DNA from: Candidatus Lindowbacteria bacterium RIFCSPLOWO2_12_FULL_62_27
GTDB taxonomy: Bacteria > Lindowbacteria > 2-12-FULL-62-27
Reading direction: 5' to 3'
Assembly: GCA_001784175.1 (NCBI GenBank)
Contig: MFPR01000040.1
Coordinates: forward strand, 59,046-123,045
DNA length: 64,000 bases
A model generated the notes under the pieces. The model was given only the letters and a program-made list of their open reading frames with translations. It did no database searches and was not told the DNA's origin. The translations under genes and the position numbers were made by a program. Positions 12,366-57,700 of the stretch are shown piece by piece (the first letter of the stretch is position 1; each line of letters opens with the position of its first letter).

Positions 12366-13585
12366 GAAGGAGATTTTGGATTTTGGATTTTGGATTTTGG
12401 ATTGTCGGGATACTTCTGTGCTGGAGCCTCTCGGCCGTCGCCGCGCAGCCGCCCGCTGCGACGCTCCTGTTTGCGCCGCCTGGCGCCGGGAGCGTCGGTA
12501 TGTCGGCCGCCGGCGCCGAGGACATCGGGTCGGCCCTCTGGCACAACCCGGCCGGACTTGTGCATCTGCGGTACCGCGAGATCGAGGCCGGGTTTGGCAG
12601 CAACTCGAACGGATTCGACGCGCACGCCGGATATTTCGACCCGGGTAAACCCATTCTCGGTTTGCCGATGGCGTTCCGCTTCGACGCGCTGACCTCCAAC
12701 GTCCTTCTCAGCGACACCAGCCCGGATCGGAAGTTCGGCGACGGCCATCTGATCGCCGTTTCCGCCGGCGCCGGTTTTTACGCCGCTTCGCGGTTGTCGC
12801 TCGGTGCGGCCACGCGGTTCTTCCATCTGAAAGCTCCGGCCGGAAACGGCGTTGGCGCCGTCGCGGATCTCGGCGCGATCTACCGCCCCGGCGAATTGAT
12901 CCGATTCTCATACGGCATCAAAAACCTTGGCTTCGTATCCAGCATTCCCGGTAGCCAGGGCGACATGCCCGTGACCCAGCTTTTGGGCGTTCACGTCAAA
13001 TCCCCCGCGCGGGGCAACATCGCGATGGACGCCGTCCTGGGCTGGCCGGCCGACCTCAAGGGCTTCTGGAGTGTGGCCGGGACCTACCGGTTCACGGAGT
13101 CGTTGGGCATGCGATTTCATCTGGCCGAGGCCAAAGACATCCCGGTCATCGACGGGCGCGGGATTGGATTCTTTCTAAACACATATTGGGGCAAGTTCGA
13201 TCTGTCGTATCAGTTGGCGGAGCTTGGAAATTTCCTCAGGTTCACCTGGATCCGCCGATCGAGCCGGCCCCCTGAAACCTACCCACCCCTCCTCCGGAGC
13301 CGGCCGCGTCCCCCCCCCGCCGCGGGCTCTATTATATATGGAGAGGCGGAAGGTGAACCTGCGAAGGAAAAGACCGGGTCGCCGGCCGGATCAGCGCCTC
13401 CGGCGCCGCCCGGGCGGATCAAGGATGCCGAAGGCACCCCGGCGGTGGCGACGCCGGTGGACGCGGAACCGCCGTCCACGGAGGAGTTTTTCCGTCCGGC
13501 CCCCAAGCGTCCTTCTGTGCCCGAAGGTCCGGCCGCCGACGCCGACGCCCCGGCGGCCGTCGCTGTCCCGGTGGACGAACGATGA
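12362..13585 (+). CDS. PorV-like outer-membrane barrel protein with Pro/Ala-rich tail
   Basis: The ATG at 12362 overlaps the previous stop (ATGA), which decides the start although the frame is open further upstream. Residues 1-28 are a signal peptide whose hydrophobic core ('FWILDFGFWIVGILLC') is partly encoded by the heptanucleotide repeat. The mature N-terminus 'FAPPGAGSVGMSAAGAEDIG' and 'WHNPAGL' mark a second, more divergent PorV-family barrel, ending near residue 300. The last 100 residues are low-complexity Pro/Ala/Glu sequence and include a GGGTCAGCG repeat peptide ('AGSAPPAPPG'). The function probably pairs with the upstream PorV-like protein. Confidence 0.75.
   Translation: MRRRFWILDFGFWIVGILLCWSLSAVAAQPPAATLLFAPPGAGSVGMSAAGAEDIGSALWHNPAGLVHLRYREIEAGFGSNSNGFDAHAGYFDPGKPILGLPMAFRFDALTSNVLLSDTSPDRKFGDGHLIAVSAGAGFYAASRLSLGAATRFFHLKAPAGNGVGAVADLGAIYRPGELIRFSYGIKNLGFVSSIPGSQGDMPVTQLLGVHVKSPARGNIAMDAVLGWPADLKGFWSVAGTYRFTESLGMRFHLAEAKDIPVIDGRGIGFFLNTYWGKFDLSYQLAELGNFLRFTWIRRSSRPPETYPPLLRSRPRPPPAAGSIIYGEAEGEPAKEKTGSPAGSAPPAPPGRIKDAEGTPAVATPVDAEPPSTEEFFRPAPKRPSVPEGPAADADAPAAVAVPVDER
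12371..12404. repeat. GATTTTG heptanucleotide repeat inside a signal peptide
   Basis: About four units of ATTTTGG encode 'FWILDFGFWI', the start of the hydrophobic core of the PorV-like signal peptide. The orientation is opposite to the copies at 1893 and 33417. Confidence 0.85.
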
Positions 13586-13628: not shown

Positions 13629-13658
13629 AACCCATGCTATAAAGGAGGTTCTACCGAT

Positions 13659-14708
13659 ATGATCAAGAAGAAACTGCTCCAGAACGGGGCGTCCCGCAAG
13701 TCCAACATCTATGACGTGGCCGAGGAGGCCGGCGTGTCCATCGCGACCATTTCCCGCGCCATGAACAATCCCGCGATCGTCTTTCCCGAAACTCTCAAGC
13801 AGATCGAGACGGCCATGAAAAAGCTCCGGTACCGGCCCAGCCCCGAGGCGAAATGCCTCGCGCAGCAGAAGAGCGACCAGATCGCCGTGTTCCTGTCGCC
13901 TCACGATGAGGTCCACTATGCCCTCGTCGTCATGAACTTTCTCGTCGGCATCATCTGGGGCGCCGAAAAGAACCGGCTTCGCATGACGGCGCATATGCTG
14001 TTCAAGACCGAGGAGGAAAACGCCGCCGTGGACGTGACGACTTCCCTGGAAGGCGCGATCATGATGGCGGACATGAAGCGCAGCGGGGCCTTGAGGGAAC
14101 TCGAGCAAAACAAAGTCCCGGTCGTCTATTTGAACTGCACCGACCATCCCAAAAAACACCGGATCACGGTGGACGACGCCGCCGGCGCCGGACTGGCGCT
14201 GGAGCATCTCATCCAGCTCGGCCACGAGCGTATCGCGTTTCTGACCGGCGAGATGACCACGATCAGCGGCCTCGCCCGCGCCCGTGGCTGCCAGGAGACT
14301 TTGAAAAAGCATGGCCTGCTCGAAGCGACGGAAAAGAACAGGTTTTTCCGAAACGCGCGGTTCGACCAGAAGATCGCCTACGCCGAAACCCATGACCTCC
14401 TCCGGCAAACCCCGCGGCCCACCGCCATCTTCGCCGCCAGCGACTGGATGGCCCTCGGGGCCATCACCGCGATCCGCGAAAAAGGCCTGGCCGTGCCCCG
14501 CGACGTCTCCGTGGTTGGATACGACAACTCCATCCTCGCCTCCCAGGTCACGCCGCCGCTCACCACGGTCCACCAGCCGTTCGTGGAAATGGGCAAGGAA
14601 GCGGTGGCGGCCATCCTGAAGATCCGCGAGGAATCCGGCCGCGTCTATCACAAGACGCTGGAGCCGAGTCTCGTGATCCGGGAAACCACGGCGCCGCCGG
14701 CCAAATGA
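13659..14708 (+). CDS. LacI-family transcriptional regulator
   Basis: The start at 13659 is set by an AAAGGAGGT ribosome binding site at 13641-13649; the frame extends upstream without support. The 349-residue product has the family helix-turn-helix at about 16-37 ('IYDVAEEAGVSIATISRAMN'), a hinge ('YRPSPEAKCLA') and a periplasmic-binding-protein-like effector domain with family motifs ('LIQLGHERIAFLTG', 'PTAIFAASDWMALGAI', 'VSVVGYDNS', 'LTTVHQPFVEMG'). Members repress or activate sugar-use genes from palindromes with a central CG. Eight sites matching G[TAG]AAGCGCTT[AT]C lie before or within the start of glycosidase genes downstream, so this protein is the obvious candidate to bind them. No such site precedes its own gene. 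Confidence 0.93.
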   Translation: MIKKKLLQNGASRKSNIYDVAEEAGVSIATISRAMNNPAIVFPETLKQIETAMKKLRYRPSPEAKCLAQQKSDQIAVFLSPHDEVHYALVVMNFLVGIIWGAEKNRLRMTAHMLFKTEEENAAVDVTTSLEGAIMMADMKRSGALRELEQNKVPVVYLNCTDHPKKHRITVDDAAGAGLALEHLIQLGHERIAFLTGEMTTISGLARARGCQETLKKHGLLEATEKNRFFRNARFDQKIAYAETHDLLRQTPRPTAIFAASDWMALGAITAIREKGLAVPRDVSVVGYDNSILASQVTPPLTTVHQPFVEMGKEAVAAILKIREESGRVYHKTLEPSLVIRETTAPPAK

Positions 14709-14732: not shown

Positions 14733-16265
14733 ATGCGGCTCGTCAAGAAGGATCTCCTCGGGAAAATCCTCCTCACCACCAGGATCATTTCCAAAGATCA
14801 GCTCCGCGAGGCTTTGGAGCGCCAGCAGAAGTCGCCCCTCAAACTCGTCGGCGAAATCCTCATCGAACTCGGATACGCCACCCAGGCCGACGTGCTCACC
14901 GCCTACGCCCTTCAACACGGCATCCGGTATGTCAACCTCGACGACACCGACCTCCCTCATTCCTCCATCGCCGGCCGCTTGCCCGCCAAATTCGCCTGCA
15001 AGTACTGCATCCTGCCGCTCAAGGAGGACGACGCGACATTCACCATCGCGTCCCACATGCCCAAATACGTCGACAAGACCATCGTCGACGATCTCGAATT
15101 GATCCTGGACAAAAAAATCGAGCTGGTGATCTGCGGCAAAGACCAGCTCATCGCCAAAATATGCGAGTTCTACCGCATCGCACGCGAGGAATATGACCGG
15201 CTGCGGTCCATCACCGACCGCGTGGCCATGGAGCTGCCGGACCTGGCGGAAGATCTGGCGCAGGAACCGTTCGACGGCGACCGCCTGGCGGTCGTCAAAA
15301 ACAGCCCCAAGATGGCCGCGCTCTATGAAACGATTCTGAGAGTTGCCAAAAGCAACGCGGCCGTCCTGCTCCTCGGCGAAACCGGCACCGGCAAGGAGGT
15401 TTGCGCCAAGGTCATCCATCAGAACAGTCTGAGGAAGGACAAGCCGTTCATCAAAGTCAGTTGCGCCGCGCTGCCGGAGACGCTCCTCGAAAGCGAGATG
15501 TTCGGTTACGAAAAAGGCGCGTTCACCGGCGCATACAGCCGCAAGCAGGGCCGGTTCGAGCTCGCCAGTGGCGGCACCCTCTTCCTCGACGAAATCGGCG
15601 AGATTACCATGCCCGTCCAGATCAAGCTCCTGCGCGTCCTCCAGGACGGCGAGATCGAGAGGCTCGGCGGCGTCCACTCCATCAAAACCGACGTGCGGAT
15701 CATCGCGGCGACGAACCGCAACCTCGAACAGGAAGTCAAGGCGGGCCGGTTCCGGCAGGACCTCTTTTACCGGCTGAACGTGGTCGCGTTCCAGATCCCG
15801 CCGCTGCGCGACCGCAAGGAGGACATCCCGTACCTGATCGAGCATTTCATCCAGAAGTTCAACCGGAAGAACGACCGGCACGTAAAGTACGTGTCGCCTA
15901 AGGTCACCGACCTTTTGATGGAATACGACTGGCCGGGAAACATCCGGGAACTCGAAAATTGCATCGAACGCATGATCGTCACGTGCACCTCCGACAAAAT
16001 CCTCGTCGAACACATTCCGTTCCACTTGAAATCGCTCCAGATGCAGGTCGCCTACAGCGGGATTTCGGACGACACGGCCGCATCTCCAGCCGGGCCGGCG
16101 CCCGGCCATGCTCCGTCTGCCGGTCCGGCAACATCGGCGGCGCTCTCCCGAGAACAGATCGAGGAAGCCCTGCGGAAAACCAGGTGGAACAAAGTCCGCG
16201 CGGCCAAACTCCTGAACATCCACCGCAACACGCTGATGAAAAAAATCAAGGACCTCGGGTTGTAA
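14733..16265 (+). CDS. Sigma-54-dependent activator with MshEN-type N-terminal domain
   Basis: This 510-residue protein follows the LacI-family gene by 24 bases. The N-terminal 1-150 resembles the GspE_N/MshEN domain, known elsewhere as a cyclic-di-GMP sensor: 'LLGKILLTTRIISKDQLREA' followed by a second 'LVGEILIELGYATQADVLTA' repeat. The AAA+ domain spans about 188-420: Walker A 'GETGTGKE' 215-222, the sigma-54 contact loop GAFTGA 262-267, Walker B 'LFLDEI' 283-288, and 'WPGNIRELEN'. An Ala/Pro linker leads to a Fis-type helix-turn-helix at about 468-510. There is no receiver domain, so it is not a normal two-component regulator. A sigma-54 promoter at 17334-17349 is a likely target. The first arginine of the classic RLG motif is Leu here, so ligand binding is uncertain. 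Confidence 0.9.
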   Translation: MRLVKKDLLGKILLTTRIISKDQLREALERQQKSPLKLVGEILIELGYATQADVLTAYALQHGIRYVNLDDTDLPHSSIAGRLPAKFACKYCILPLKEDDATFTIASHMPKYVDKTIVDDLELILDKKIELVICGKDQLIAKICEFYRIAREEYDRLRSITDRVAMELPDLAEDLAQEPFDGDRLAVVKNSPKMAALYETILRVAKSNAAVLLLGETGTGKEVCAKVIHQNSLRKDKPFIKVSCAALPETLLESEMFGYEKGAFTGAYSRKQGRFELASGGTLFLDEIGEITMPVQIKLLRVLQDGEIERLGGVHSIKTDVRIIAATNRNLEQEVKAGRFRQDLFYRLNVVAFQIPPLRDRKEDIPYLIEHFIQKFNRKNDRHVKYVSPKVTDLLMEYDWPGNIRELENCIERMIVTCTSDKILVEHIPFHLKSLQMQVAYSGISDDTAASPAGPAPGHAPSAGPATSAALSREQIEEALRKTRWNKVRAAKLLNIHRNTLMKKIKDLGL

Positions 16266-16283
16266 TCGCCGGGCGGTGGAACC

Positions 16284-16655
16284 CTATTTCACATCCACCG
16301 TCATTTTTCGGAGGTCGAAGGTTGCGATCCGGCCCGTGATGATTTCCATGCCGACGAGTCCGACTTCGGCGTCGGTCAGACTCAGAAGCACAACGATCCG
16401 GCGGCCGGAAACTTGAAGTGTCCCTCGATATAAAATGTCCTGCACGACGCTGCCGTCCGCCAATTGATATTGGGTCCGGTTGAAAGGCTCCAACCGCGCG
16501 CGCCGGCCGATCTTTCGCGGCAACACGAGACTGCCGTTGAATCCGGTGTCCAGGATCGCGTTGAATTGAATGCGCTCACCCCTCATTCCAAGAATGGACA
16601 CGTCTTCGAGCATCGGTTCGAGATTGGCCGTGATCTGGCCTTTCAGGAATGTCAC
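16284..16655 (-). CDS. Retropepsin-like aspartic protease
   Basis: Read on the minus strand, a GTG at 16655 overlaps the stop of the partner gene (GTGA), which fixes the start and gives 123 residues. The single-domain clan AA signature is clear: catalytic 'AILDTGFNGSLVLP' at about 25-38 followed by 'LADGSVV', strand pairs and 'LVGMEIITGRIATFDL' near the end. Such proteins work as homodimers with one Asp from each chain. No signal peptide, so it is probably cytoplasmic. It converges on the sigma-54 activator, with 18 bases between stop codons. The biological substrate is unknown. Confidence 0.8.
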   Translation of the reverse strand: MTFLKGQITANLEPMLEDVSILGMRGERIQFNAILDTGFNGSLVLPRKIGRRARLEPFNRTQYQLADGSVVQDILYRGTLQVSGRRIVVLLSLTDAEVGLVGMEIITGRIATFDLRKMTVDVK

Positions 16656-16912
16656 CTGAAGCGAAAGAACGGGGTATGGATCTTGAAGGCCGTCGGATAC
16701 CCGACGCGGATGAGGCGCACGTCGCTGCCGTTTTTCATCGGCGGGCAACTCCGGACAATGTCGGACCCGCAGAAACACCGGCCGCTTTTTATATCCACCG
16801 CCACCAATATCCCCTTGCGAAGCCTCCGGCCTTTGAAAAATTTCCGGGCGGCCAAAAGCGCATCCCTATTCCAAGCCGCCGGCGTTTTGGAACTCCGTAC
16901 GGATCGTTTCAT
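16652..16912 (-). CDS. Small protein paired with the retropepsin-like protease
   Basis: An 86-residue basic protein whose stop overlaps the GTG start of the protease gene, so the two are translationally coupled. The central part 'KGILVAVDIKSGRCFCG' and the ending 'VRLIRVGYPTAFKI' look like small partners (DUF5678-like in appearance) seen beside similar proteases in other bacteria; this is recalled from general pattern and not verified. No signal peptide or membrane segment. The start ATG at 16912 has only a weak AAGG upstream. It could be a chaperone, substrate or antitoxin-like partner. Confidence 0.55.
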   Translation of the reverse strand: MKRSVRSSKTPAAWNRDALLAARKFFKGRRLRKGILVAVDIKSGRCFCGSDIVRSCPPMKNGSDVRLIRVGYPTAFKIHTPFFRFR

Positions 16913-16985
16913 GACCTTATGCTATCCCCGGGTTGTCCGAAAGGCAAGCTCGCAAATGAGAAAACGGAAATGCATCGTCTCGCTC

Positions 16986-17137
16986 AGAACGTGTGAATAA
17001 ATCCCTTATCCACGAAGGAGCACGAAGGGGCACGAAGAAACATTTAGATAACATATTGAATATCTGGATTCCCTTCGTGTCAGCTTCGTGTCCCTTCGTG
17101 GATAAAAAGTGGTTTATTCAATTTTTTCACACGTTCT
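16986..17137. repeat. Large CACGAAGG inverted-repeat element
   Basis: The outer arms AGAACGTGTGAA and TTCACACGTTCT are perfect complements. Inside, GAATAAATCCCTTATCC and tandem CACGAAGG(A/G) units on the left pair imperfectly with CTTCGTG units and GGATAAAAAGTGGTTTATTC on the right. The element occupies the start of a 490-base gene-free stretch (16913-17403) ahead of the sigma-54 promoter. No ORF is credible within it. A related, looser element lies at 45130-45290. Confidence 0.75.
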
Positions 17138-17164
17138 CACCGAACGGCGGAACTAAACAGCATA

Positions 17165-17184
17165 ATGCACATATAATTGTGCAT
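17165..17184. promoter_or_regulatory. ATGCACA-N6-TGTGCAT inverted repeat, candidate activator site
   Basis: Perfect 7-bp arms separated by TATAAT lie about 150 bases upstream of the sigma-54 promoter, the distance usual for enhancer sites of sigma-54 activators. A further TATGCACA half site follows at about 17214-17222. Assignment to the activator encoded at 14733 is inference. Confidence 0.4.
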
Positions 17185-17268
17185 ATAGCCTATATATCTG
17201 CCGTGAATATGCAGTATGCACACATCATCAAGCGTGCTTTCACGATGGGCGCCCACTTTGGCGCATTC

Positions 17269-17284
17269 GAAACCTTAAGGTTTC
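17269..17284. promoter_or_regulatory. 16-bp perfect palindrome GAAACCTTAAGGTTTC
   Basis: A fully symmetrical sequence between the candidate enhancer site and the sigma-54 promoter. It is a possible binding site for another regulator. No second copy was noticed in the window. Confidence 0.3.
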
Positions 17285-17315
17285 AAATGATTTGTGAAAA
17301 TTCCACGTTTTAACA

Positions 17316-17327
17316 GTAAGCGCTTTC
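17316..17327. promoter_or_regulatory. LacI-type operator GTAAGCGCTTTC
   Basis: It lies 7 bases upstream of the sigma-54 promoter element. It matches the AGCGCT consensus shared by eight sites in the window and has the central CG expected for LacI-family operators. Its centre is 43 bases, about four helical turns, from the next operator. Confidence 0.7.
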
Positions 17328-17333
17328 ATCACC

Positions 17334-17349
17334 GGGCATACCCTTTGCA
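17334..17349 (+). promoter_or_regulatory. Sigma-54 promoter GGGCAT-N5-TTGCA
   Basis: GG and GC are exactly 10 bases apart, with GGGCAT and TTGCA against the consensus TGGCAC-N5-TTGCA (two mismatches). Transcription would start near 17360, inside the second operator, and lead into the malectin-GH144 gene at 17404. The activator encoded 1 kb upstream carries the GAFTGA loop needed for this sigma factor. Confidence 0.65.
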
Positions 17350-17358
17350 AGAGATGGA

Positions 17359-17370
17359 GTAAGCGCTTAC
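17359..17370. promoter_or_regulatory. LacI-type operator GTAAGCGCTTAC
   Basis: A perfect 12-bp palindrome covering the predicted start point of the sigma-54 promoter. Together with the site at 17316 it brackets the promoter, an arrangement suited to repression by looping or by blocking open-complex formation. Confidence 0.75.
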
Positions 17371-17403
17371 AAGCGCCAAACAAAAATGGGGTGGAGGTCA
17401 GAC

Positions 17404-20016
17404 ATGAAAACTGAGATTTTAGATTTTAGATTTTGGATTTTGGATTCCAATAAGGGCGGTTTGAGATGGGCTACCGCGATTCTCATCCTGCTGCTCTGCG
17501 CCGGCCTTCCTGAGGCTCAGGCCGCGCTCAGCAAATCATCGCCGACCGGCGAGGAGGTCTGGCGCATCAACTGCGGCGCCACCGCCGCCGATTACGCCGA
17601 TCCGGCCGGGAACACATGGGTCAAGGACGAGGATTTCTACTCCATTTACCGCTGGGGCTACATCAACGGCAACACCGCCTCCACCACCTCCAACATCACC
17701 AACACCTCCACGCCCGAAATTTACAAGTCCAGCCGCTGGGGCGGAACGAACCTGTCCTACAAGGTCGAAGTCCCCAACGGCACCTACCGCGTCCGGCTCA
17801 TGTTTGCGGAGACGTACTGGAACCAGGCCGGCAAGCGCGTGTTCAACGTGGCCCTCGAAGGCAACACGCTGTGGTCCTTCGTCGACATCTGGGCCTGGGC
17901 CGGCAATGCGATGAACAAGGCGATGGACCTGACGGCCGACGTGACGGTGACGGACGGCGTCCTCGACGTGACGTTTCCCGTCGTTCAGATGGACAACGCC
18001 TGCATCAGCGGGATCGAGGTCAAGGTCCTCACGCTGGCCGACGACGCGTTCCTCGATTTCGTGCAGAAAAAGATGTTCTGGTTTTACTGGAACGAGGCCG
18101 ACGTTCAGACCGGCCTCGTCAAATGGGGCGAGAACAATTTCGCCCAGGGGTACGGCAACACCTCCAGCATCGCCACCGATGGGTTCGCCCTCTCCATCTA
18201 TACGATCGCCGCCAGCCGCGGATGGATCACGCGCCAGCAGGCGTACGATCGCGTCATGAAAATGCTGAATACGTTTGAGACTGTCATCCAGAACGTGCAT
18301 GGTTTCTGGTGGCATTTCGTCTACACCGCCACCGGCGCGCGCGAGGGCACAACCGAAATCTCGACCGTCGACTCCGCGCTCTTTATCATGGGCGCGCTCC
18401 AGGCCGGCGAGTTTTTCCGAAGCGACCATCCGGACGTCGCGTCCAAGGCGGACCTTCTGTACCGCCGCATGGAGTGGAGCTGGTTTCTGAACGTCAATGC
18501 CGGCGATCCGTATCTGAACCGGTTCGTCAACATGGGCTGGAAGCCCGAGTATCAGCCGGGATCGCCGCACGGCTACGTCATCGCGAGCGGCCGGCCCGAA
18601 GGCGGTTATTTCGTGAACGACTGGTGGAACCGGTACAGCGAATCGGTCTTCGTGAACTTCCTCGCGCTCGGCTCGCCCACCTACTCGGCCGGTCCGGCGG
18701 CTTGGACGGACATGGGCAAGCCGTGGGTCGACGATTTTGGCTATCACTACGTGAACGAGCCGCCGCTTTTCACGCACCAGTTTCATCATCTCTATTACGA
18801 CATGCGAAACCGGCACGACGGCAAGGTCGACTACGTCGACAACACCCGCAAGGCCACGCAGGTCAACCGCCTCACGTGCGAGAACGACAGCCGCTATGAG
18901 CCCAAACGCTGGGGGCTGTCGGGTTCCAACGGGCCGACGGGCTATCAGGCCTACGGCGCCGGCACGGGCGGGTTCCACGACGGCACGGTCGATCCGGCCG
19001 CGCCCGCCGCCACGATGAACATCACGCCCACGGAGTCGATCCAGGCCACGCGGTTCATGTTCTTCCAGTACAAGCATCACATCTGGGGCCAGTACGGGTT
19101 TTCGGACGCGTTCAACGTGAGCGCCGACTGGAAGGACTGGCTCTTCGACGGCCTCAGCGCCGGCGCGCTCGTCATTGGCATCGAAAATTACCGCACCGGC
19201 ATGGTGAGAAACGAGTTCATGAAAAATCCATACCTTGCGACCGCCTACGCTCAGGCCGGCATCAAGACCTTCGGCCAGTCCGCGCTCTACAACGCATCGA
19301 CCGGCAGTGACGCGCCGAACGCGTTCGACAACAACATGACCACGCGCTGGGGCTCGGCCTTCGCCGACCCGCAGTGGCTCGAAGTCGACTACGGCGCCGG
19401 ACGGACGTTCAACAAGGTCACGATCAACTGGGAGGCGGCCTACGGCAAGGACTACAAGATCCAGGCGTCGTGGGACGCGAACACGTGGTGGGACGTCGCG
19501 ACCGTCGTGAACGGCAACGGCGCCACGGACATCCTGACCTTCCCGATGAACACCGCCCGATACTGGAGAATGTACGGCACGAAACGCGGCACGGCGTGGG
19601 GCTATTCGATCTGGGAGATGAAATTCGAGAACACGGTGAATCTCGCTCTGAACAAGCCGGCCACGTCCTCATCCAACGAAAACTCGGGCGTCACGGCGCC
19701 GAAGGCCTTCGACGGCAGCTTCACGACGCGCTGGGCGTCACTGTGGAGCGACCCGCAGTGGGTCCGGGTCGACCTCGGCTCGAACCAGAACGTGAGCCGC
19801 GTGATCCTGCACTGGGAGTACGCGTACGGCAAGGACTACAAAATCCAGACCTCGACGGACAACATCAACTGGACGGACCGCTTCACGGCGGTCAACGGCG
19901 ACGGCGGCGTCGATGAGTGCCCGTTCACGGCCGTGAGCGCCCGGTACATCCGCATGTACGGCACCGCGCGCGGCACCGGGTTCGGGTATTCGCTGTGGGA
20001 GATGCAGGTGCAGTGA
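17404..20016 (+). CDS. Secreted malectin-GH144-discoidin2 glucanase
   Basis: GGAGGT five bases before the ATG at 17404 favours this start over an in-frame ATG at 17386. The 870-residue product has a signal peptide whose n-region is partly repeat-encoded ('ILDFRFWILDSNKGG') and ends 'EAQAA'. Next come a malectin domain about 50-210 ('EEVWRINCG', 'YRVRLMFAETYW'), a Glycoamylase/GH144-type domain about 213-622 ('FVQKKMFWFYW', 'YFVNDWWNRYSESVFVN', 'PLFTHQFHHLYYDMRN', 'IGIENYRTGM'), and two discoidin domains about 627-742 and 745-869. The family includes endo-beta-1,2-glucanases. It is nearly collinear with the product at 25222. It is first in an operon behind the sigma-54 promoter; its stop overlaps the next GTG. 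Confidence 0.88.
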   Translation: MKTEILDFRFWILDSNKGGLRWATAILILLLCAGLPEAQAALSKSSPTGEEVWRINCGATAADYADPAGNTWVKDEDFYSIYRWGYINGNTASTTSNITNTSTPEIYKSSRWGGTNLSYKVEVPNGTYRVRLMFAETYWNQAGKRVFNVALEGNTLWSFVDIWAWAGNAMNKAMDLTADVTVTDGVLDVTFPVVQMDNACISGIEVKVLTLADDAFLDFVQKKMFWFYWNEADVQTGLVKWGENNFAQGYGNTSSIATDGFALSIYTIAASRGWITRQQAYDRVMKMLNTFETVIQNVHGFWWHFVYTATGAREGTTEISTVDSALFIMGALQAGEFFRSDHPDVASKADLLYRRMEWSWFLNVNAGDPYLNRFVNMGWKPEYQPGSPHGYVIASGRPEGGYFVNDWWNRYSESVFVNFLALGSPTYSAGPAAWTDMGKPWVDDFGYHYVNEPPLFTHQFHHLYYDMRNRHDGKVDYVDNTRKATQVNRLTCENDSRYEPKRWGLSGSNGPTGYQAYGAGTGGFHDGTVDPAAPAATMNITPTESIQATRFMFFQYKHHIWGQYGFSDAFNVSADWKDWLFDGLSAGALVIGIENYRTGMVRNEFMKNPYLATAYAQAGIKTFGQSALYNASTGSDAPNAFDNNMTTRWGSAFADPQWLEVDYGAGRTFNKVTINWEAAYGKDYKIQASWDANTWWDVATVVNGNGATDILTFPMNTARYWRMYGTKRGTAWGYSIWEMKFENTVNLALNKPATSSSNENSGVTAPKAFDGSFTTRWASLWSDPQWVRVDLGSNQNVSRVILHWEYAYGKDYKIQTSTDNINWTDRFTAVNGDGGVDECPFTAVSARYIRMYGTARGTGFGYSLWEMQVQ
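17413..17448. repeat. GATTTTA/GATTTTG heptanucleotide repeat at a gene start
   Basis: About five units directly after the start codon of the malectin-GH144 gene encode 'EILDFRFWILDS' in the signal-peptide n-region. It has the same orientation as the copies at 12371 and 20035. Confidence 0.85.
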
Positions 20017-21659
20017 AAAAACCTGAGATTTTAGATTTTAGATTTTCGATTTTTCTTCCATTCTGTCCAAAGTCGTCGAAGGAGTCGTTGGCCATAGTCT
20101 TACTGGCGTGCGCCGTTGTGATGTGCCCGGAGGCAACTTGGGCAACGCATCTGGGCACCTGCCATGACAGCAATCACGTGACATGTTTCTCGACGGCCCC
20201 CAGTCACACTCAGGAATTCATCAGCATGGGCTGGCTTAGCTACCATGACATCGCGTTCGGATTGCTGATCAAACCGGGATGGAAACAGGGAATCCTGAGC
20301 GCATATAATTGGAGTCCGCACGTTCCCAACCATATCACGGAGGTAACCAGTGTGGATCTGGTGCGATGGGATGTTTTCGGCGATTTTCCAGGCTATTATC
20401 GAGACGCGCTGGCTTCAGGAATCCCAGTTCCGATCGCATCGGGTGGGGGCACCGTAGGTTCCTTCTTGCCAACGCGCGGGGGAACATTTTATACGGGAAC
20501 GAAGATAAACATCTCCGCACGCTATGAGGGTTATTATCCATGGCTGGAGCCGCTGGGCGGATATAATTCAGACGGATCGGCCAACAAAGGTCCCATCGAG
20601 TTCACCAATCCAGAGTGGGGCGTGGGACCCCAATTCGACGAATGGGGGTTTGAGGTGAGACCATGGTGCATCGCATTGCAGATGCGGCTTGAGAATTTGA
20701 CCCCCGGGGACCTGAATCCGCCGGAAGAGGTTCAGCCAAAGAACGCCGATCCGGGCGATCCCACGAATGAGAAATCGAAGGTCCGATCCAGGTTGTCCGG
20801 AACATCTGTGCCGTCCTTGCTGGCGGGGGGTGCATACGTGGGGTGGTATATCGAAGGAGAAGGCGGGGGACATGAGGAAGCGCATCACGCCACACCAAGA
20901 CCGGTCGGCACGTTTGAGAATGGCCAGTGGCTGCATTTCGAACACGTGCCGACGGGGCAGACCGTCGATCTCACTCGGACATATACCGCTGGCGAATTCG
21001 GGGGCGACGAGCGAATCAAGGTTGTGGTCAGCGACAAGCCGTTGACTGCTTCGAGCCTTCCGAGATCGACGCTTGCGGAACAGGCGTCGGCCCGGGAGGT
21101 ATTGAAGCAGGAGGGTATCGCGGCGGCGGGAAACGACGAAGGCGTCCGCGGCGACGGCACCGGCTGCGCGTTTGGGACCGACGTCTACGTTTTCTGGCCG
21201 GGCCTTCAAGAAATCTCGGATGGGGCGGATTACGAAAAAACGGGACAAACCCCTTCACACCCTCGGAACCACCATGGAACCTCAGATTTGATTATGGCTA
21301 TTGAGAAAGTAGCCTTTAAATATAGAGAAACCACGAAGAACAGCCCCGGTCTTGATGAAGCCATTATCCGTGTCAATGACATGAGTCTTGAGAATGGCGG
21401 AGCGTTTGATATTTGCGCCACGTGGGATATACACGATAATAGTTGTTTGTCTGATCCCAAACCGCCGACGGCTCACAATCGTCACAGAACGGGAAAGAGT
21501 GTGGATATCAGTAAATTCCATAAAGTGATATCTACTGGGTCCGTGGTCCTCCTCGGGAATAATACCTTTCTGGTACAACAATTATTTACAAATGAAAATC
21601 TAAATATTTCTTCACAATTATTTGCGCAATTCGGAAGACTGCATTTTGAACTGCAATGA
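20013..21659 (+). CDS. Putative secreted LAS-type zinc metallopeptidase
   Basis: The GTG at 20013 overlaps the previous TGA (GTGA) and is followed by a heptanucleotide repeat encoding 'EILDFRFSIF'. A hydrophobic stretch 'SLAIVLLACAVVMC' then acts as the signal segment. The 548-residue protein has no obvious known N-terminal domain. Near the C-terminus 'NDMSLENGGAFDI' precedes 'HNRHRTGKSVDI', an H-x6-D pattern as in LAS (M15-like) zinc peptidases, and the last residues 'RLHFEL' could supply the final His ligand. If so it would cut peptide or peptidoglycan bonds outside the cytoplasm. The 3' third is more A+T-rich than the 5' part. It overlaps the next gene by ATGA. Confidence 0.6.
   Translation: MKKPEILDFRFSIFLPFCPKSSKESLAIVLLACAVVMCPEATWATHLGTCHDSNHVTCFSTAPSHTQEFISMGWLSYHDIAFGLLIKPGWKQGILSAYNWSPHVPNHITEVTSVDLVRWDVFGDFPGYYRDALASGIPVPIASGGGTVGSFLPTRGGTFYTGTKINISARYEGYYPWLEPLGGYNSDGSANKGPIEFTNPEWGVGPQFDEWGFEVRPWCIALQMRLENLTPGDLNPPEEVQPKNADPGDPTNEKSKVRSRLSGTSVPSLLAGGAYVGWYIEGEGGGHEEAHHATPRPVGTFENGQWLHFEHVPTGQTVDLTRTYTAGEFGGDERIKVVVSDKPLTASSLPRSTLAEQASAREVLKQEGIAAAGNDEGVRGDGTGCAFGTDVYVFWPGLQEISDGADYEKTGQTPSHPRNHHGTSDLIMAIEKVAFKYRETTKNSPGLDEAIIRVNDMSLENGGAFDICATWDIHDNSCLSDPKPPTAHNRHRTGKSVDISKFHKVISTGSVVLLGNNTFLVQQLFTNENLNISSQLFAQFGRLHFELQ
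20035..20058. repeat. GATTTTA heptanucleotide repeat at a gene start
   Basis: About three units just after the GTG start of the putative peptidase gene, coding 'EILDFRFSIF'. It is the third copy in which this repeat directly follows a start codon. Confidence 0.8.
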
Positions 21660-22849: not shown

Positions 22850-25225
22850 ATGAGAAACGACCTGCCAACATTTTTTTTTGGCATCACGAAGAAAGCGCTT
22901 ACAATACTCATACTGTCTGTGGTCGTCCTGTCACGCGCATGGGCGGCCTCCGACTATCTCCACACCATCGGCAACCGCGTGTACGACGAGAACAACACGG
23001 AGGTGTTCATCACCGGCGTCAACTGGTTTGGATTCGAGACCACCGATTACGTGTTTCATGGTCTGTGGGCCAGAAACATGAACGACATGCTCAATCAGAT
23101 GGCGGGACTGAAATTCAACGTCCTGCGCGTGCCGCTGTCGAGTGAGTTCATCAAGAAGGTCCGCACCGGGCAGACGGTGAAGCCCGGCAAGAGCAAGATC
23201 AACCGGAACGTGAATCCTGATCTGGTGGGGAAAACGTCGATCGAAATCCTCGACATGGCCATCGCCTACTGCCGGACGATCGGCCTCAAGGTCATCCTCG
23301 ACATGCACCGAACGCCCGCGTCCGGCATGATCGACCTCTGGTACAACTCGTCGATCACCGAAGAGGACTGGATGCTCAACTGGGAGTGGCTGGCTGGCCG
23401 CTACGGAGGCAACGACGCCGTCATCGGCGCCGACATTTTCAACGAGCCGCACGGCGTCGCGCGCTGGGACGGATCGAACTCGGCCGTGGACTGGCGGCGC
23501 GCGGCGCAATTGTGCGGCAACCGGGTCATAGCCATCGAACCGAACTGGCTGATTTTCGTCGAAGGCGTCGAGACGCCGGACGGCGCCACCTACGGCTGGT
23601 GGGGCGGGAACCTCCGCGGCGCCGCCTCGTATCCCGTCACGCTGAGCCGGCCCGACAAGCTCGTCTATTCTCCGCACGAATACGGGCCGGCGGTCTACAA
23701 TCAGTGGTGGTTCCATAACGGCAGTTTTTCCTATGACTCACTGATGAGCGAGCACTGGAAACCGAGCTGGCTCTTCATCAACGATCAGGCCGACGTGCAT
23801 CCCCTCCTGATCGGCGAATGGGGCGGCCGCGAATACGACCTCGCGAGCGACAGCGGCCGATGGTTCAACTATCTTGTTCAGCTCATCGCCAACAAGAAAC
23901 TCAATCACACCTTCTGGTGCTGGAACCCCAACAGCGGTGACACCGGCGGCGTCCTGAACGACGACTGGACGACGGTGAACTGGGGAAAATACAACGTCAT
24001 TCTGGCGACCCTGTTCGGCAATGGACTCGGCCATACCGTCGGACTGGGCGGCGGCGCGCCCTGGCCAGGGTTCACTCAAAGCTGGCCCCGGGCCGTCGCA
24101 TCGACCTACGACGGAAACGGGGTGGAGCCGGCGAACGCCATCGACGGCAATTACAGCTCGCGCTGGAGTTCGACCTTCAACGACAATCAGTGGATCTCCA
24201 TCGACTTTCAATCGAACCGTTCCTTCGACGGCGTGACGCTGACCTGGGAGGCGGCCTATGGCCGCGCGTATGAAATCCAGGTGTCGGCGGACGGCGCCAA
24301 CTGGATGACCGTGGCGGCCGTGACCGACGGCGACGGCGGACAGGATGTGGTCTCATTTTCGCCGCAGACGGCGCGGTACGTGAAAAAGAAGGGCGTGACG
24401 CGGGCGACATCGTGGGGATACTCGCTCTATGAGTTTCAGATCAACGAGGTAATCCCCTCCATTTTCCCGATCGTCACCGAATCCTCCTACGAGTCCGCCG
24501 ACCGGGACGGCCGCAAGGCCTTCGACGGCAGCATGGGCACGCGGTGGGCCTCAGAGTGGAGCGACCCGCAGTGGATCAAGGCCGATTACGGGACGGAGAC
24601 GACCTTCAACAAAATCACGATCGACTGGGAGTCCGCCTACGGGAAATCCTACGCGGTGGAGATGTCGCACAACAATTTCAACTGGACGCCCGTCTATTCG
24701 ACCGCGACGGGTGACGGCGGGCAGGACCTCCTCACGTTCGAGCCGGTCTCTGCGCGGTACGTGCGGCTGTACGGCACCGAACGGGGAACAACGTATGGAT
24801 ATTCGATCTGGGAAATAAAAATCGAAAACACGATGGCCGCCATCTCCAATCTGGCGCTCGGTCGCACGGCCTACGCCTCCTCCATCGAGGATTCGGGCAT
24901 GGAACCCATCAGCGCCTTCGACGGCAACATCTCCACGCGCTGGGCCTCGCAGTGGTCCGACCCGCAGTGGCTGGCGGTCGACCTCGGGTCGGCGAAGACC
25001 GTCAGCCAGGTGACGCTCGACTGGGAATACGCGTCGGCACGGTCGTACAAAATCCAGGTGTCGCAGGACATGTCGAGCTGGACGGACGTCTACTCGACGA
25101 CCACAGGCGATGGCGGATACGACGATATCACTTTCCCGGCAGTCAGCGTGCGGTACGTGCGGATGTACGGCGCCCAGCGCGCCACGACGTTCGGGTACTC
25201 GCTGTGGGAGATGCAAGTACGGTGA
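22850..25225 (+). CDS. Secreted GH5 glycosidase with three discoidin domains
   Basis: The start is fixed by TGGAGGA at 22834-22840. The 791-residue product has a signal peptide ending 'SRAWA', a GH5 TIM-barrel about 30-390, and three tandem discoidin domains about 410-530, 535-660 and 665-790, the last ending 'GYSLWEMQVR'. The GH5 acid/base is in 'IFNEPHG' (Glu199) and the nucleophile in 'LIGEWGG' (Glu323), so the enzyme should be active on a beta-glucan or beta-mannan; the subfamily cannot be told by eye. A LacI-type operator lies inside the signal-peptide codons at 22891-22902. The stop overlaps the next GTG. Confidence 0.9.
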   Translation: MRNDLPTFFFGITKKALTILILSVVVLSRAWAASDYLHTIGNRVYDENNTEVFITGVNWFGFETTDYVFHGLWARNMNDMLNQMAGLKFNVLRVPLSSEFIKKVRTGQTVKPGKSKINRNVNPDLVGKTSIEILDMAIAYCRTIGLKVILDMHRTPASGMIDLWYNSSITEEDWMLNWEWLAGRYGGNDAVIGADIFNEPHGVARWDGSNSAVDWRRAAQLCGNRVIAIEPNWLIFVEGVETPDGATYGWWGGNLRGAASYPVTLSRPDKLVYSPHEYGPAVYNQWWFHNGSFSYDSLMSEHWKPSWLFINDQADVHPLLIGEWGGREYDLASDSGRWFNYLVQLIANKKLNHTFWCWNPNSGDTGGVLNDDWTTVNWGKYNVILATLFGNGLGHTVGLGGGAPWPGFTQSWPRAVASTYDGNGVEPANAIDGNYSSRWSSTFNDNQWISIDFQSNRSFDGVTLTWEAAYGRAYEIQVSADGANWMTVAAVTDGDGGQDVVSFSPQTARYVKKKGVTRATSWGYSLYEFQINEVIPSIFPIVTESSYESADRDGRKAFDGSMGTRWASEWSDPQWIKADYGTETTFNKITIDWESAYGKSYAVEMSHNNFNWTPVYSTATGDGGQDLLTFEPVSARYVRLYGTERGTTYGYSIWEIKIENTMAAISNLALGRTAYASSIEDSGMEPISAFDGNISTRWASQWSDPQWLAVDLGSAKTVSQVTLDWEYASARSYKIQVSQDMSSWTDVYSTTTGDGGYDDITFPAVSVRYVRMYGAQRATTFGYSLWEMQVR
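22891..22902. promoter_or_regulatory. LacI-type operator GAAAGCGCTTAC within coding sequence
   Basis: It matches the AGCGCT consensus and falls 41-52 bases after the first base of the GH5 start codon, where it encodes part of 'KKALTI' in the signal peptide. A repressor bound here would act as a roadblock just downstream of the promoter. No convincing promoter was found before this gene. Confidence 0.6.
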
Positions 25226-30422: not shown

Positions 30423-30451
30423 TTGACTTTGTGTGCTACATGGTGTAAACG
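30423..30451 (+). promoter_or_regulatory. Possible housekeeping promoter TTGACT-N17-TAAACG
   Basis: In the 233-base gap between the CBM48-thioredoxin gene and the discoidin/Ig gene, a good -35 hexamer is spaced 17 bases from a weak -10 that lies inside the operator at 30444. Repressor binding would cover the -10. The rest of the gap (30456-30565) holds only the GGGACGCTGTC motif at 30531-30541, also seen near 45350. Confidence 0.35.
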
Positions 30452-30455
30452 CTTA
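30444..30455. promoter_or_regulatory. LacI-type operator GTAAACGCTTAC
   Basis: One mismatch from the perfect palindrome at 17359. Its centre is 137 bases, about 13 helical turns, from the operator at 30581, which would place both on the same DNA face. Confidence 0.6.
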
Positions 30456-30575
30456 CATGAGGGTCGGGAACGTGTCGGTCAAAATCGAGAGGTCGGGTCT
30501 GACAACTTTTGAAATTGAATAGATCGGGTTGGGACGCTGTCTTTTAGAAACGACAAAAAGAGATTAAAGGAGATT

Positions 30576-33500
30576 ATGATGAAAGCGCTTTCAACAACGA
30601 GGTATCCGGAAATCCGATGGGCGACGATTGGGCTGGTCAGTGCACTCATACTTTCCTGCTGGTTTTGTATCGCCTATGCTTCTCCGAATCTGGCGTTGAA
30701 CAAGTCCGTCACCGTGTCGAGCGCGGAAGGCGGGAACGTCGGATCGAACGCGGTCGATGGGAATTCCGGAACCCGCTGGAGCAGCGATTTCAGGGATCCG
30801 CAATGGATACGGGTGGACCTCGGGTCGACGGCGGCGGTCAACCGCGTTGTTCTGAACTGGGAGGCGGCCTACGGGCGGGAGTATCGGATTCAGGCTTCTT
30901 CCAACGGCGTCGATTTTACGGACATCCTCTATATTAATAATGGCGATGGCGGATTTGACGACCTCGGGTTTGCTCCGGTTCAAACGCGATATGTCCGGTT
31001 GTACGGGATCGCGCGCGGCACGCCCTGGGGATACTCGCTGTGGGAGCTCGAAGTCTACGTCGATGACGAGTCGCCGGCCGCGCCCGTCGTGAACGCGACG
31101 TCGGCGTGGTCGAACATCGAGATGGAGGCGCGGACGATCAGCGGGACGGTGGAGCCGAACGCGACGGTGATCCCGTACGTAGAGGTGTTCGGGTCGTCGT
31201 ACGAGCAGACGAACGTGCAGGCGGGCGGCGACGGCAACTGGAGCGCGCCGGTGAACATCTGGGGACCGGACGGGACGGAGTTCAAAGTCTACGCGGCCGC
31301 GCGGGACGCGGCCGGCAACTGGAGTGGGCGGTCGAACGAGCAGATCATCCGAAAAGATTTGTCGGCGCCGGCGGCGCCCGTCGTGAACGTGACCTCGGCG
31401 TGGTCGAACGTGGAGCAGGAGGCGCGGACGATCAGCGGGACGGCGGAGGCGAACGCGACCGTGATCCCGTACGTCGAGGTGTTCGGATCGTCGTATGAGC
31501 AGACGAACGCGCAGGCGGGACCCGACGGGACCTGGAGCGCGACGGTGAACATCTGGGGTCCGCACGGGACGGAGTTCAAAGTATATGCGGCGGCGAGGGA
31601 CGCGGCCGGCCACTGGAGCGGGCGGTCGAGCGATCAGACGATTCGAAAAGACCTCCTCGCGCCGGCGACGCCTCTTCTTTATCCGATGTCGCCCTGGTCC
31701 ACCACTGAAAACGAGGTCCGGATTATCTCGGGCCGCGCTGAGCCTTACACGACGATCGTTCCGTATGTTTCGGTTCTCGGCAACGGCACCTTCGAGCAGA
31801 CGAGCGTGCGGGCCGACACGAGCGGTTCGTGGCTGGCCACGGTCAATCTGTTCGGGCCTGACGCATCTGAATTTGATATTTATGTTCAGGCCTTGGACGA
31901 CGCGGGCAACGCCAGCCCCCGCTCGAACTTGGATCACGTCCGCAAGGATGTCTCGGCCCCGGCCGCGCCGGAGGTGTTCGCGACATCGGAGTGGTCGAAC
32001 ATCGAGAACGAGGCGCGGACCATCAGCGGCGTCACGGAACCTTACGCGACGGTCGCGCCGTTTGTAGAAGTGGTCGGCATCGGCACGTGGGAACAGGCGA
32101 ACGTTGCGGCCGACGCGTTCGGCGCCTGGAGCGCCTCCGTCAATATCTGGGGGCCCGACGCCACCGAGTTTCATATCTACGGCGTCGCCAAAGACGCGGC
32201 CGGCAATGTCGGGCCGCGGTCGAACGCGCTGACCGTCCGCAAGGACCTCGTCGCGCCGGTCATCACGATCGATGCGGTCGAAAGCCCGACCGATCAGGAC
32301 GTGACGCTGCGGTATACGGTGGTGGACGCCAACCCGACGGCCGTCACGGGAGACAACAGTCCCTACACGGCCGAGGGCGAGCACACCGCGACGCTGACCG
32401 CGACCGACGCGGCCGGAAACAGTTCGAGCGCGTCCATCACGTTCGTCATCCATCGCGCGCCTCCGCCGCCGGTCGACGGCGCCGCGCCGGTGACGACGCT
32501 TTCCATCGATCTCATCAACGAATCCACCAAGACCGCGATCTCGCAGAGCCTGGTGACGCTGAGCGCAGAGGACGCCGCGGGCGAGGGCGCCTCGGGCGTG
32601 GCGGCGATCGAGTTCCGGTTTGACGACGGCGCATTTCTGAACTACGCCGGCGCATTCACTCTGGAGGGGTTGGCCTTGGGCGCGCACACGCTGGAGTACC
32701 GGAGCCGCGACGTGGCCGGCAATGTCGAGACGGCGCACCGGCTGGAGTTCAGCGTGGCCGACGCGCTGGCGATTTCGCGACAGACCAACGAGGGCATCGC
32801 GCCGAACCTCCTCGTGTGGCTGAACTACCGGGAGGGCAAGGGATCGAACAGCGGCAAGCTCTTTGCGGATGGTGAGGATGAGGTCGACGTGGCGCTCCTC
32901 GATCAGGTTCTGGCGGACGCCGGCGCGCTGTCGGTCACGAAGGTCGTGTCGCGCCAGGATTACGTCAAGGCGCTGCGCAGCGGCGATTACAACGCGTATC
33001 TCATTTTGGGCAACCGGTCGAACTCAAAGAACGCCGGCACGTACGACGAGGAGCTTCGCGAGCGCGTGCGCCGCGGAGAAGCGGTGGTGGCATCATTCTG
33101 GCGGAGCGGCCGGCTGGCCGACGCGCGGGTGGAGGGCCGCAGTGTGTGGGGCGCGCTGGTGCGCGACGGCAAGACCGGGAAGCGCGATCTGACCGCGACG
33201 TTTTTCGGCGGCAACCTCGTGGCGGACACGCTGTCGATCCAAGCCGACGGCAAGACGCGGCGGGTGAGTCTGAGCGCCAAGGATCAGAGTCCGGACGTGT
33301 CCGTGATCGGCGTCGTCGACTGCGGCGCCGGCGCTCCGGACGACGAGTGCGAGGACCCGGACGGCGGCGATGACGACGAGTGCGGCGACGACGACGGCTG
33401 CGGGGACGACGGCCCTGAAATCCAAAATCCAAAATCCAAAATCCAAAATCTCAATCAGAGCGTGGCCGTGAGCAACTCGTATCATCAGGGGCGCGCCGTT

Positions 33501-45314: not shown

Positions 45315-45326
45315 GTAAGCGATTTC
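45315..45326. promoter_or_regulatory. Weak LacI-type operator GTAAGCGATTTC
   Basis: It matches the consensus except one base in the centre. It sits two bases upstream of a TTGACA hexamer. Its centre is 137 bases from the next operator, the same spacing as the pair at 30444 and 30581. Confidence 0.45.
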
Positions 45327-45328
45327 AC

Positions 45329-45357
45329 TTGACAACCGGGTACCGACGTGGGACACT
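45329..45357 (+). promoter_or_regulatory. Promoter-like TTGACA-N17-GACACT, unit A
   Basis: A perfect -35 with a weak -10 lies immediately after the first operator. The whole block is repeated about 243 bases downstream (unit B), including the distance to the next operator. Confidence 0.45.
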
Positions 45358-45451: not shown

Positions 45452-45463
45452 GGAAGCGCTTAC
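45452..45463. promoter_or_regulatory. LacI-type operator GGAAGCGCTTAC, unit A
   Basis: Good consensus match in the leader of the giant gene, 123 bases after the unit A -35 hexamer. It is preceded by TATTTTTTTACAG, which is conserved in unit B. Confidence 0.65.
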
Positions 45464-45695: not shown

Positions 45696-45707
45696 GGAAG
45701 CGCTTAC
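45696..45707. promoter_or_regulatory. LacI-type operator GGAAGCGCTTAC, unit B
   Basis: Identical 12-mer to the unit A operator, 244 bases further on and 20 bases before the giant gene's start codon. Repressor here would act as a roadblock. Confidence 0.7.
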
Positions 45708-54700: not shown

Positions 54701-57700
54701 ACGACGATCACGCTGACGGGGCCGGCCGACACGACGACCAGCGCCGATACGACGCCGGCGTTTTCGTGGGCGGGCGACGGCGACACGTTTGTGTTTCAGA
54801 TCGCGAAGGACACGGCATTCAGCAACGTCAGGGACACGAAAATAACAGCGGCGTTTTCGTACGCGCCGGACAGCGGCTATTCCGAGGACACGTATTTCTG
54901 GCGCGTTCTCGCGCTGGACATCGCCGGCAACGCGGACACCCCCGCGCACCGGATGGTTGTGATTGACACGCGCGCCACGGTTGCGCTGTCGACGCCGGGG
55001 GACTCGCACGAGACATCGGACACGACACCCGCGTTTACGTGGAGCGGCAGGGCGGACAGCTTTACATTCCAGGTTTCGCGCCTGACGACGTTCGACACGC
55101 TGATCGACAGCGCGACGCAGGCGGGGACAAGTTACACGCCGGCCGGAAGCGTCTGGTATGCGGCCGACACGTACTGGTGGCGCGTCGTCGCGAAAAACAT
55201 TGCGGGGAATTTCGACACATCGTCGCGCTGGATGCTGGTGGTGGACACGAAGGTTGCGGTGACGTTGGCGTCGCCGGTGGACGGCGTTGTGAGCAACGAC
55301 TCGACGCCTTCGTTTACGTGGACAAGCGACGGCGACACGTTTGTGTTTCAGATCGCGCGGGACACGGCCTTTGGAAACGTGCGGGACACGAAGACGACGG
55401 CGGCGCTGTCCTATACGCCGGATACCGGATACGCCTATGACACCTACTTCTGGCGCGTCTTGGCGCTGGACATCGCGGGGAACGCGGAGACCGCCGCCTA
55501 TCGGACGCTGGTGATCGATTCGCGCGTGTCGGTGACGCTGACGGGCCCGGGGGATTCGTATGAGACGAACGACACGACGCCGGCGTTCACGTGGGTCGGG
55601 ACCGGCGACAGTTACACGTTTCAGATTTCCCGGAGCGAGACGTTCGCGACGATCGCGGACAGCCAGATGGCGTCCGGGACCACGTACACGCCGTCGGGCG
55701 GCGTCTTCTACGCGGCAGACACATACTTTTGGCGGGTGATCGCGAAGAACATCGCCGGCAACATGGACACAGCCGCGCGGCGGATGATCGTGGTGGACAC
55801 GATCGTGAGTGTGACGCTGGAGAGTCCCGTGGATTCGGCCGTCGTGAGCGACACGACGCCCACGCTGATCTGGACGAGCGACGGGGACACGTTCACGGTG
55901 CAGGTGTCGAAATCGGCCGCGTTCACGGCGCTGGTGGACAGCAAGACGACGACCGCGTTGACGTACACGCCGTCGGGCGGATATGGCGCCGATACCCATT
56001 ACTGGCGGATCGTTGCGACAGACGCGGCGGGCAACACGGACACGAGCGCGTATCGAAAATTCGAGATCGACACGAGTTTGAGCGTGACATTGTCGAGCCC
56101 GGCCGATTCGACGGAGACGAACGACACGACGCCCACGTTTGCCTGGTCGGGCGACGCCGACACCTTCACGGTCCAGATTTCGAAATCCGAAACTTTCTCG
56201 GCGATCTTTGACAGCAAATCCGCGGCGGCATTGAATTATACGCCGTCGCCCGGCTACGCCGCCGACACCTATTTCTGGCGGGTGCTGGCGACGGACAGGG
56301 CCGGCAACGCCGACACGACCGCCTATCGGAAACTCGTCATCGACACGATCGTCACGGTGAGCCTGTCGAGTCCGGGAGATTCGGCGGAGACGAACGACAC
56401 GACGCCGGCGTTTACGTGGAGCGGCACGGGCGACACGTACACGATTCAGGTTTCGAAGTCAGACACGTTCGACGGCATCGTTGACAGCAAGACGACCGCG
56501 ACGACCGGTTACACGCCCTCGTCAGGGTATGTCGCCGACACGTACTTCTGGCGGGTGATCGCCGGCGACAAGGCCGGAAATCTGGACACGTCCGCGCGCC
56601 GCCGGTTCGTGGTCGACACGATCGTCGCCGTGAGTCTGCTCTTGCCGGCGGATTCGACGGAGACGAACGACACGACGCCGGCGTTTACGTGGAGCGGGAC
56701 CGGCGACACCTACACGATACAAGTCTCCCGGACGACAACCTTCGGCACGATACATGACAGCCGAACGGCGAGCGCGGCGAGTTACACGCCGCCTGCGGGG
56801 TACGTCGCGGACACGTACTTTTGGCGAGTCATCGCGTCGGATGACGCCGGCAACCATGAGACGTCGGCCTACCGGATGGTGGCCGTGGATACCGGCGTGA
56901 CGGTGAACCTGTCGAGTCCTTCCGACACGTATCGAACGAACGACACGACGCCGGCGTTCGCGTGGACCGGCACGGGCGACACATACGTGGTTCAGACGTC
57001 GCGGACCGCCGCGTTTTCGACGATCTTCGACAGCAGGACGACTTCCGCTCTGAGTTATACGCCGTCCGGCAGCGTCTATTATTTCGCGGACAGTTATTAC
57101 TGGCGTGTGATCGCGCAGGATGACGCGGGGAACTACGAGACGGCGTCGGCGCGTGCGCTGATCGTTGACACGCTGGTGACGGTGAGCGCGAGCAGTCCCG
57201 CGGATTCATTGGAGACGCGGGACACGACCCCGACGTTCACGTGGACGGGCGACGGCGATACCTACGTGCTTCATATCTCGAAGGCCGACACGTTCGAGCC
57301 GCTGTTCGATGGGCTGACGACGACGGGGCTGACATACACGCCGAGTCCCGGTTATGCGCCGGCAACGTACCACTGGCGGGTGATCGCGCTGGACGTTGCG
57401 GGCAATCAGGAGACGACGGCGGCCCGGCGGGTGATCGTCGACACTTCCGTGACGGTGGGTTTGACGTCTCCCGCGGATTTGGCGGAGACAAACGACACGA
57501 CGCCCGCGTTTACGTGGACGGGGGACGGAGACACGTATGTGGTGCAGGTATCGAGGGAGGCGGGATTCGGGACAATCGCGGACAGCAAGACCACGATCGC
57601 GGCGACGTACACGCCGAGTCCGGGGTACGGAGCGGACACGTACTATTGGCGTGTCATCGCGAGTGACGATGCGGGGAACACGTCGGCGACGGGATACCGG

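Follow-up and report, generated by a model that had tools for sequence, protein, structure and literature searches.

Sigma-54 promoters need an activator and, to our knowledge, dedicated repressors acting on such promoters have rarely been shown. CcpA is a LacI-family protein and uses the same type of operator as the locus described here. In Bacillus subtilis, the levanase (lev) operon is controlled by SigL, LevR, and CcpA, with a cre site (TGAAAACGCTTAAC) located at -45 of levD; CcpA bound to this site prevents the interaction between LevR and the polymerase (PMC3463425, PMC3796520). In the cel operon of Bacillus thuringiensis, which is controlled by Sigma54 and CelR, the -24/-12 element is accompanied by three activator sites, and the cre site (TGAAAGCGTTAACA) for CcpA lies next to this element, on its upstream side (PMC10864463). 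Beyond these systems, LacI-family regulators typically use even palindromic operators centered on a CG pair, and operators inside coding starts made up under 1% of the sites in a survey of the family (PMC4052901).

We analyzed a 64-kb stretch of DNA from a Candidatus Lindowbacteria genome (hereafter, the window). On balance, with a little better than even confidence, we read positions 17316-17370 as the region that controls an operon for secreted glucanases, which would be repressed by a LacI-family protein and activated through sigma-54 in an AND gate operated by the neighboring regulators. The locus resembles B. subtilis lev in its predicted sigma-54 promoter for glycan-hydrolase genes, its candidate upstream activator site, and its LacI-family site just upstream of the -24 element, and it shares with B. 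thuringiensis cel a (here predicted) -24/-12 element and a site for a LacI-family protein, which in cel is CcpA. However, both Firmicutes operons rely on the global catabolite regulator CcpA, acting at one site in lev, whereas the Lindowbacteria locus has a local repressor and two bracketing sites; moreover, the activator is of the PTS-domain type (LevR) in lev and PTS-controlled in cel, versus MshEN-type here. Local LacI-family sugar regulons of the RegPrecise type are similar in their even, central-CG palindromes and in having a carbohydrate regulon beside the repressor gene (PMC4052901), but differ in that the principal regulated promoter of the Lindowbacteria regulon appears to be sigma-54-dependent and some of its operators lie inside coding starts. 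The first-pass annotation had described the combination of LacI repression and sigma-54 activation as unusual, a view that is weakened by the Bacillus precedents (PMC3463425, PMC3796520, PMC10864463). That a LacI-family repressor and a sigma-54 activator can jointly control a glycan operon is thus already known in principle; what is new here is the local repressor, the two bracketing operators, and the MshEN-type activator.

The LacI-type operators are firmly supported. Two palindromes flanking the predicted promoter, noticed from the letters alone at the outset, were found again as O1 (17316-17327; GTAAGCGCTTTC), at about -44 to -33 relative to the predicted start, and O2 (17359-17370; GTAAGCGCTTAC), at about -1 to +11 and overlapping that start; their centers are 43 bp apart, with the -24/-12 element between them. 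The operator class is enriched: with up to two mismatches, the 12-mer occurred 21 times in the window versus 5.3 expected, and 0 of 100 shuffles reached 21. A genome-wide search for the operator returned nine sites matching the 14-mer TGTAAGCGCTTACA with up to two mismatches in the 4.39-Mb source genome, eight of them within the window and the ninth preceding an ABC sugar transporter/GH35 operon. Further operators were located at 22891-22902 (GAAAGCGCTTAC; within the signal-peptide codons of a GH5 gene), 30445-30456 (GTAAACGCTTAC; with a TTGACT box 16 bp upstream), 30581-30592 (GAAAGCGCTTTC; at the start codons of an F5/8 protein gene), and 45315-45326 (GTAAGCGATTTC; with TTGACA just downstream, at 45329), as well as at 45452-45463 and 45696-45707 (both GGAAGCGCTTAC), the last of which precedes a large gene with a PF10091 domain. 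The sites are even palindromes with a central CG pair and are concentrated beside carbohydrate genes in the vicinity of the repressor gene, and the spacings between them (43, 136, 137, and 168 bp) are all near whole helical turns. The operators of the GH5 and F5/8-domain genes lie within the first codons, a position that suggests roadblock repression.

Similar sites were present in a second Lindowbacteria genome (G001), which belongs to the same family but to another genus: a perfect TGTAAGCGCTTACA precedes the ortholog (68% identical) of the GH5 gene of the window, and TGTAAGCGTTTACA precedes a GH144-type gene.

The repressor gene (13659-14708, plus strand) is preceded by a ribosome-binding site (AAGGAGGT) at 13642-13649 and encodes a 349-aa protein with Pfam LacI and Peripla_BP_3 domains, that is, a LacI-type HTH and a periplasmic-binding-protein-like effector domain. 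Its closest solved relatives are LacI, CcpA, and PurR. Two LacI-like proteins were found in the source genome, one of which is encoded in the window. The ortholog in G001 is 59% identical overall, with an identical recognition segment, VSIATISRAMN. Based on these sequence comparisons, the predicted link between the window LacI repressor and its operator sites can be regarded as established by computation. We also considered looping by a tetrameric repressor. Judging from lengths, however, the protein is too short to include a C-terminal tetramerization helix like that of E. coli LacI; two independent dimers at O1 and O2 are therefore more likely than a looping tetramer, despite the near-whole-turn spacings of the operators.

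Downstream of the repressor gene, a 510-aa sigma-54 enhancer-binding activator is encoded at 14733-16265 on the plus strand (Pfam PF00158, PF05157, and PF02954). This protein combines an MshEN-like N-terminus, a Sigma54_activat AAA+ domain with GAFTGA and Walker A and B motifs, and a Fis-type HTH. It had been proposed that the LacI-family and activator genes stand just before the promoter; Pfam confirmed both identities, but the genes are not immediately upstream, as about 1.07 kb separate the end of the activator gene (16265) from the promoter, an interval that holds an opposite-strand ORF and a 164-bp repeat. This repeat (16980-17143) is an imperfect inverted-repeat element with CACGAAG motifs; near-full copies were present on contigs C31 (97%), C4 (88%), and C28 (83%), and it therefore resembles a MITE-like dispersed repeat.

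In G001, the activator ortholog (72% identical) is encoded directly behind the LacI ortholog, with overlapping stop and start codons, and this adjacency indicates that the pair is inherited as a unit. The G001 contig with the regulators also encodes an ABC-transporter ATPase and a homolog, judged by eye, of the GH35-type protein; the regulator pair and the conserved glycosidase operators are on different contigs. Among the 80 activator-type loci examined, a relative of the window LacI protein was found only at the Lindowbacteria locus. One may tentatively go further, at rather less than even confidence, and see in the two genes a dedicated LacI and MshEN-type activator module that is passed on intact within Candidatus Lindowbacteria and responds to beta-glucan and, through the divergent MshEN domain, to a second internal signal, with twin operators bracketing the -24/-12 element.

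The N-terminal domain is shared, at the level of Pfam MshEN, with known c-di-GMP receptors; however, its c-di-GMP motif is degraded, and all four activators of MshEN type lacked a match to the motif even in a relaxed form of the published pattern (PMC5013675). We therefore discarded control by c-di-GMP through this domain as the default, and the domain should not be taken to sense c-di-GMP. In both Lindowbacteria genomes, a second sigma-54 activator of MshEN type was observed, divergent from a phospholipase-D-like nuclease gene (L060 6475-9294 and L061 3521-7354); the G001 intergenic region at that locus contains a good -24/-12 site (TGGAACACTAGTTGCA; L061 5290).

The predicted sigma-54 promoter (GGGCATACCCTTTGCA; 17334-17349, plus strand) consists of GGGCAT (17334-17339), ACCCT, and TTGCA (17345-17349), with exactly the GG-N10-GC spacing reported in the first-pass annotation. 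Taking GC as -13/-12, transcription would start near 17360. Compared with TGGCACG-N4-TTGCW, the site departs from the 12-position consensus at three positions; with an approximate sigma-54 matrix, it ranked fifth among all window positions. The probability of an equally good match was about 0.0006-0.002 in the 31 bp between the operators and about 0.04 when the whole 260-bp intergenic region was considered on that strand, both values being post hoc and somewhat overstating the significance. Taken alone, the -24/-12 match is only moderately significant. The strict sigma-54 consensus was matched nine times genome-wide versus 22-25 times per strand in the reversed control; since real matches were rarer than control matches, motif counting cannot prove sigma-54 use, and single contexts are more telling. 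One of these is L184 of the source genome, in which a perfect TGGCACGCAAGTTGCA (1501-1516) stands between an activator gene and a target gene whose secreted product has no match in NCBIfam, which indicates that the organism uses such a gene order. RpoN itself is encoded at full length in the source genome and carries the RpoN box RRTVAKYRE. In the comparison, which covered three genomes of the phylum, the G001 contigs searched yielded no ortholog of the gene at 17404 whose upstream region could be aligned with the promoter. No strong -24/-12 site was found beside the conserved G001 operators.

Two palindromes upstream of the promoter are candidate activator sites; for bacterial enhancer-binding proteins, such palindromes are expected some 80-150 bp before the start. 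An inverted repeat about 150 bases upstream, already noticed in the initial reading, is present at 17165-17184 (ATGCACATATAATTGTGCAT), accompanied by a further ATGCACA, the third, at 17216-17222, and is the sole perfect copy in the source genome; in shuffles, and judged post hoc, an inverted repeat of this type had P = 0.15, and three copies of the 7-mer had P = 0.03. The initial reading had missed a closer palindrome at 17264-17289 (CATTCGAAACCTTAAGGTTTCAAATG), with its center near -84 relative to the predicted start. Among the uninterrupted palindromes of the window it is in the top two, a post hoc ranking that somewhat overstates its significance, and it was unique within three mismatches in searches of the source genome and G001. 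Neither palindrome was found in G001. From its sequence, the palindrome at 17264-17289 appears to be the stronger candidate for the activator site.

Together, these features outline a possible mechanism. The LacI-family protein encoded at 13659-14708 would bind O1 and O2, a step that is strongly supported by the sequence. As O1 abuts the -24 element and O2 covers the start, two dimers bound in the absence of the sugar ligand should flank and occlude both the -24/-12 element and the start, such that sigma-54 RNA polymerase could not load or could not be contacted by the activator. A glucan breakdown product would then bind the repressor and release it from the DNA, while the MshEN-AAA+-Fis activator, bound to an upstream palindrome (most likely 17264-17289), would loop over and use ATP to open the promoter. 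Expression would thus depend on both sugar-dependent derepression and an active sigma-54 activator. Most of the other operators of the regulon are near TTGACA-type (sigma-70) boxes, for example those at 30445 and 45315 (TTGACA or TTGACT), and similar boxes were present near the G001 operators; sigma-54 control would therefore be specific to the glucanase operon. If this mechanism is correct, secreted glucanases in a candidate phylum that lacks model organisms would be governed by a compact AND gate, built from a local LacI repressor and its own activator. A further outcome of the analysis is a predicted regulon and operator for an uncultured lineage.

The same boxes also lend weight to a different explanation, in which GG-N10-GC arose by chance, transcription starts from a weak sigma-70-type promoter (for example TTGCAA-N17-TACAAG at 17345-17373, overlapping O2), LacI is the sole control, and the activator serves other genes. 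The sigma-54-like motif class indeed showed no enrichment in the window (20 matches versus 17.5 expected), and in G001 the activator gene lies away from the conserved glycosidase operators. Nevertheless, TTGCAA-N17-TACAAG matches just four of six positions per hexamer, and a promoter scan of the plus strand of 16266-17500 found no sigma-70 promoter; furthermore, the sigma-54 match sits exactly between the operators, and the activator and LacI genes are paired across genera. We consider this explanation rather unlikely. It is improbable that the operon is sigma-54-dependent and LacI-repressed but activated by an enhancer-binding protein other than the MshEN-type one. The 33 candidate activator-like genes counted at first look in the source genome would leave room for such a protein, as would the dispersed repeat that separates the activator gene from the promoter, but the window activator adjoins the repressor, in a place kept in G001, and activators often control their neighbors, as at L184.

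A start farther upstream is very improbable. It would lie in the AT-rich stretch at a perfect TATAAT (17172-17177) within the upstream inverted repeat ATGCACA-N6-TGTGCAT, which would then be the operator of a third regulator, and LacI bound at O1 and O2 would be a roadblock within a long leader, a mode of action known for LacI-family proteins (PMC3463425). However, this TATAAT has no -35 element at 16-18 bp, and the -24/-12 match and the palindrome at 17264-17289 would be left unexplained. The combined LacI and sigma-54 interpretation is thus strongly supported in its first part, the link between operators and regulator. In its second part, a sigma-54 promoter controlled by the adjacent activator, it is plausible on the basis of one genome and modest statistics, and is now better supported because rpoN is present, the activator is intact, no sigma-70 promoter was detected here, and the palindrome at -84 is unique. 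Repression of the glucan-degrading cluster by the nearby LacI-type protein is almost certain, and its activation through the sigma-54 promoter by the neighboring activator is probable; the sigma-54 component of glucanase-operon control is probable, not proven.

The genes downstream of the control region are polysaccharide genes, as originally annotated. The first of them (17404-20016, plus strand) has a ribosome-binding site, GGAGG, at 17392-17396 and an ATG at 17404, and according to Pfam it encodes a secreted protein with malectin, PF10091 (GH144-type glucanase), and F5-8 type C domains. The enzyme set of the cluster comprises PF10091/GH144-type, GH3, GH35, and GH5 proteins, which suggests that the substrate may be a beta-1,2-glucan or a related compound; this agrees with a GH144/GH35 cluster described in Ignavibacterium (PMC8861115). 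By the same reasoning from the GH144-type and GH35 genes, the effector of the repressor is perhaps a beta-1,2-gluco-oligosaccharide (PMC8861115).

Two other repetitive features were observed in the window. Tandem arrays of a 7-bp unit, ATTTTGG or ATTTTAG, were present at 1894-1931, 12373-12403, 17416-17446, 20028-20051, and 33419-33449 (15 matches versus 0 expected); these arrays are inserted at the starts and ends of genes and are translated as ILDFGFWILDF. Moreover, long minus-strand open frames with Arg/His-rich repeats were observed at 57000-63600, and are probably the shadow of a highly repetitive coding sequence on the plus strand.
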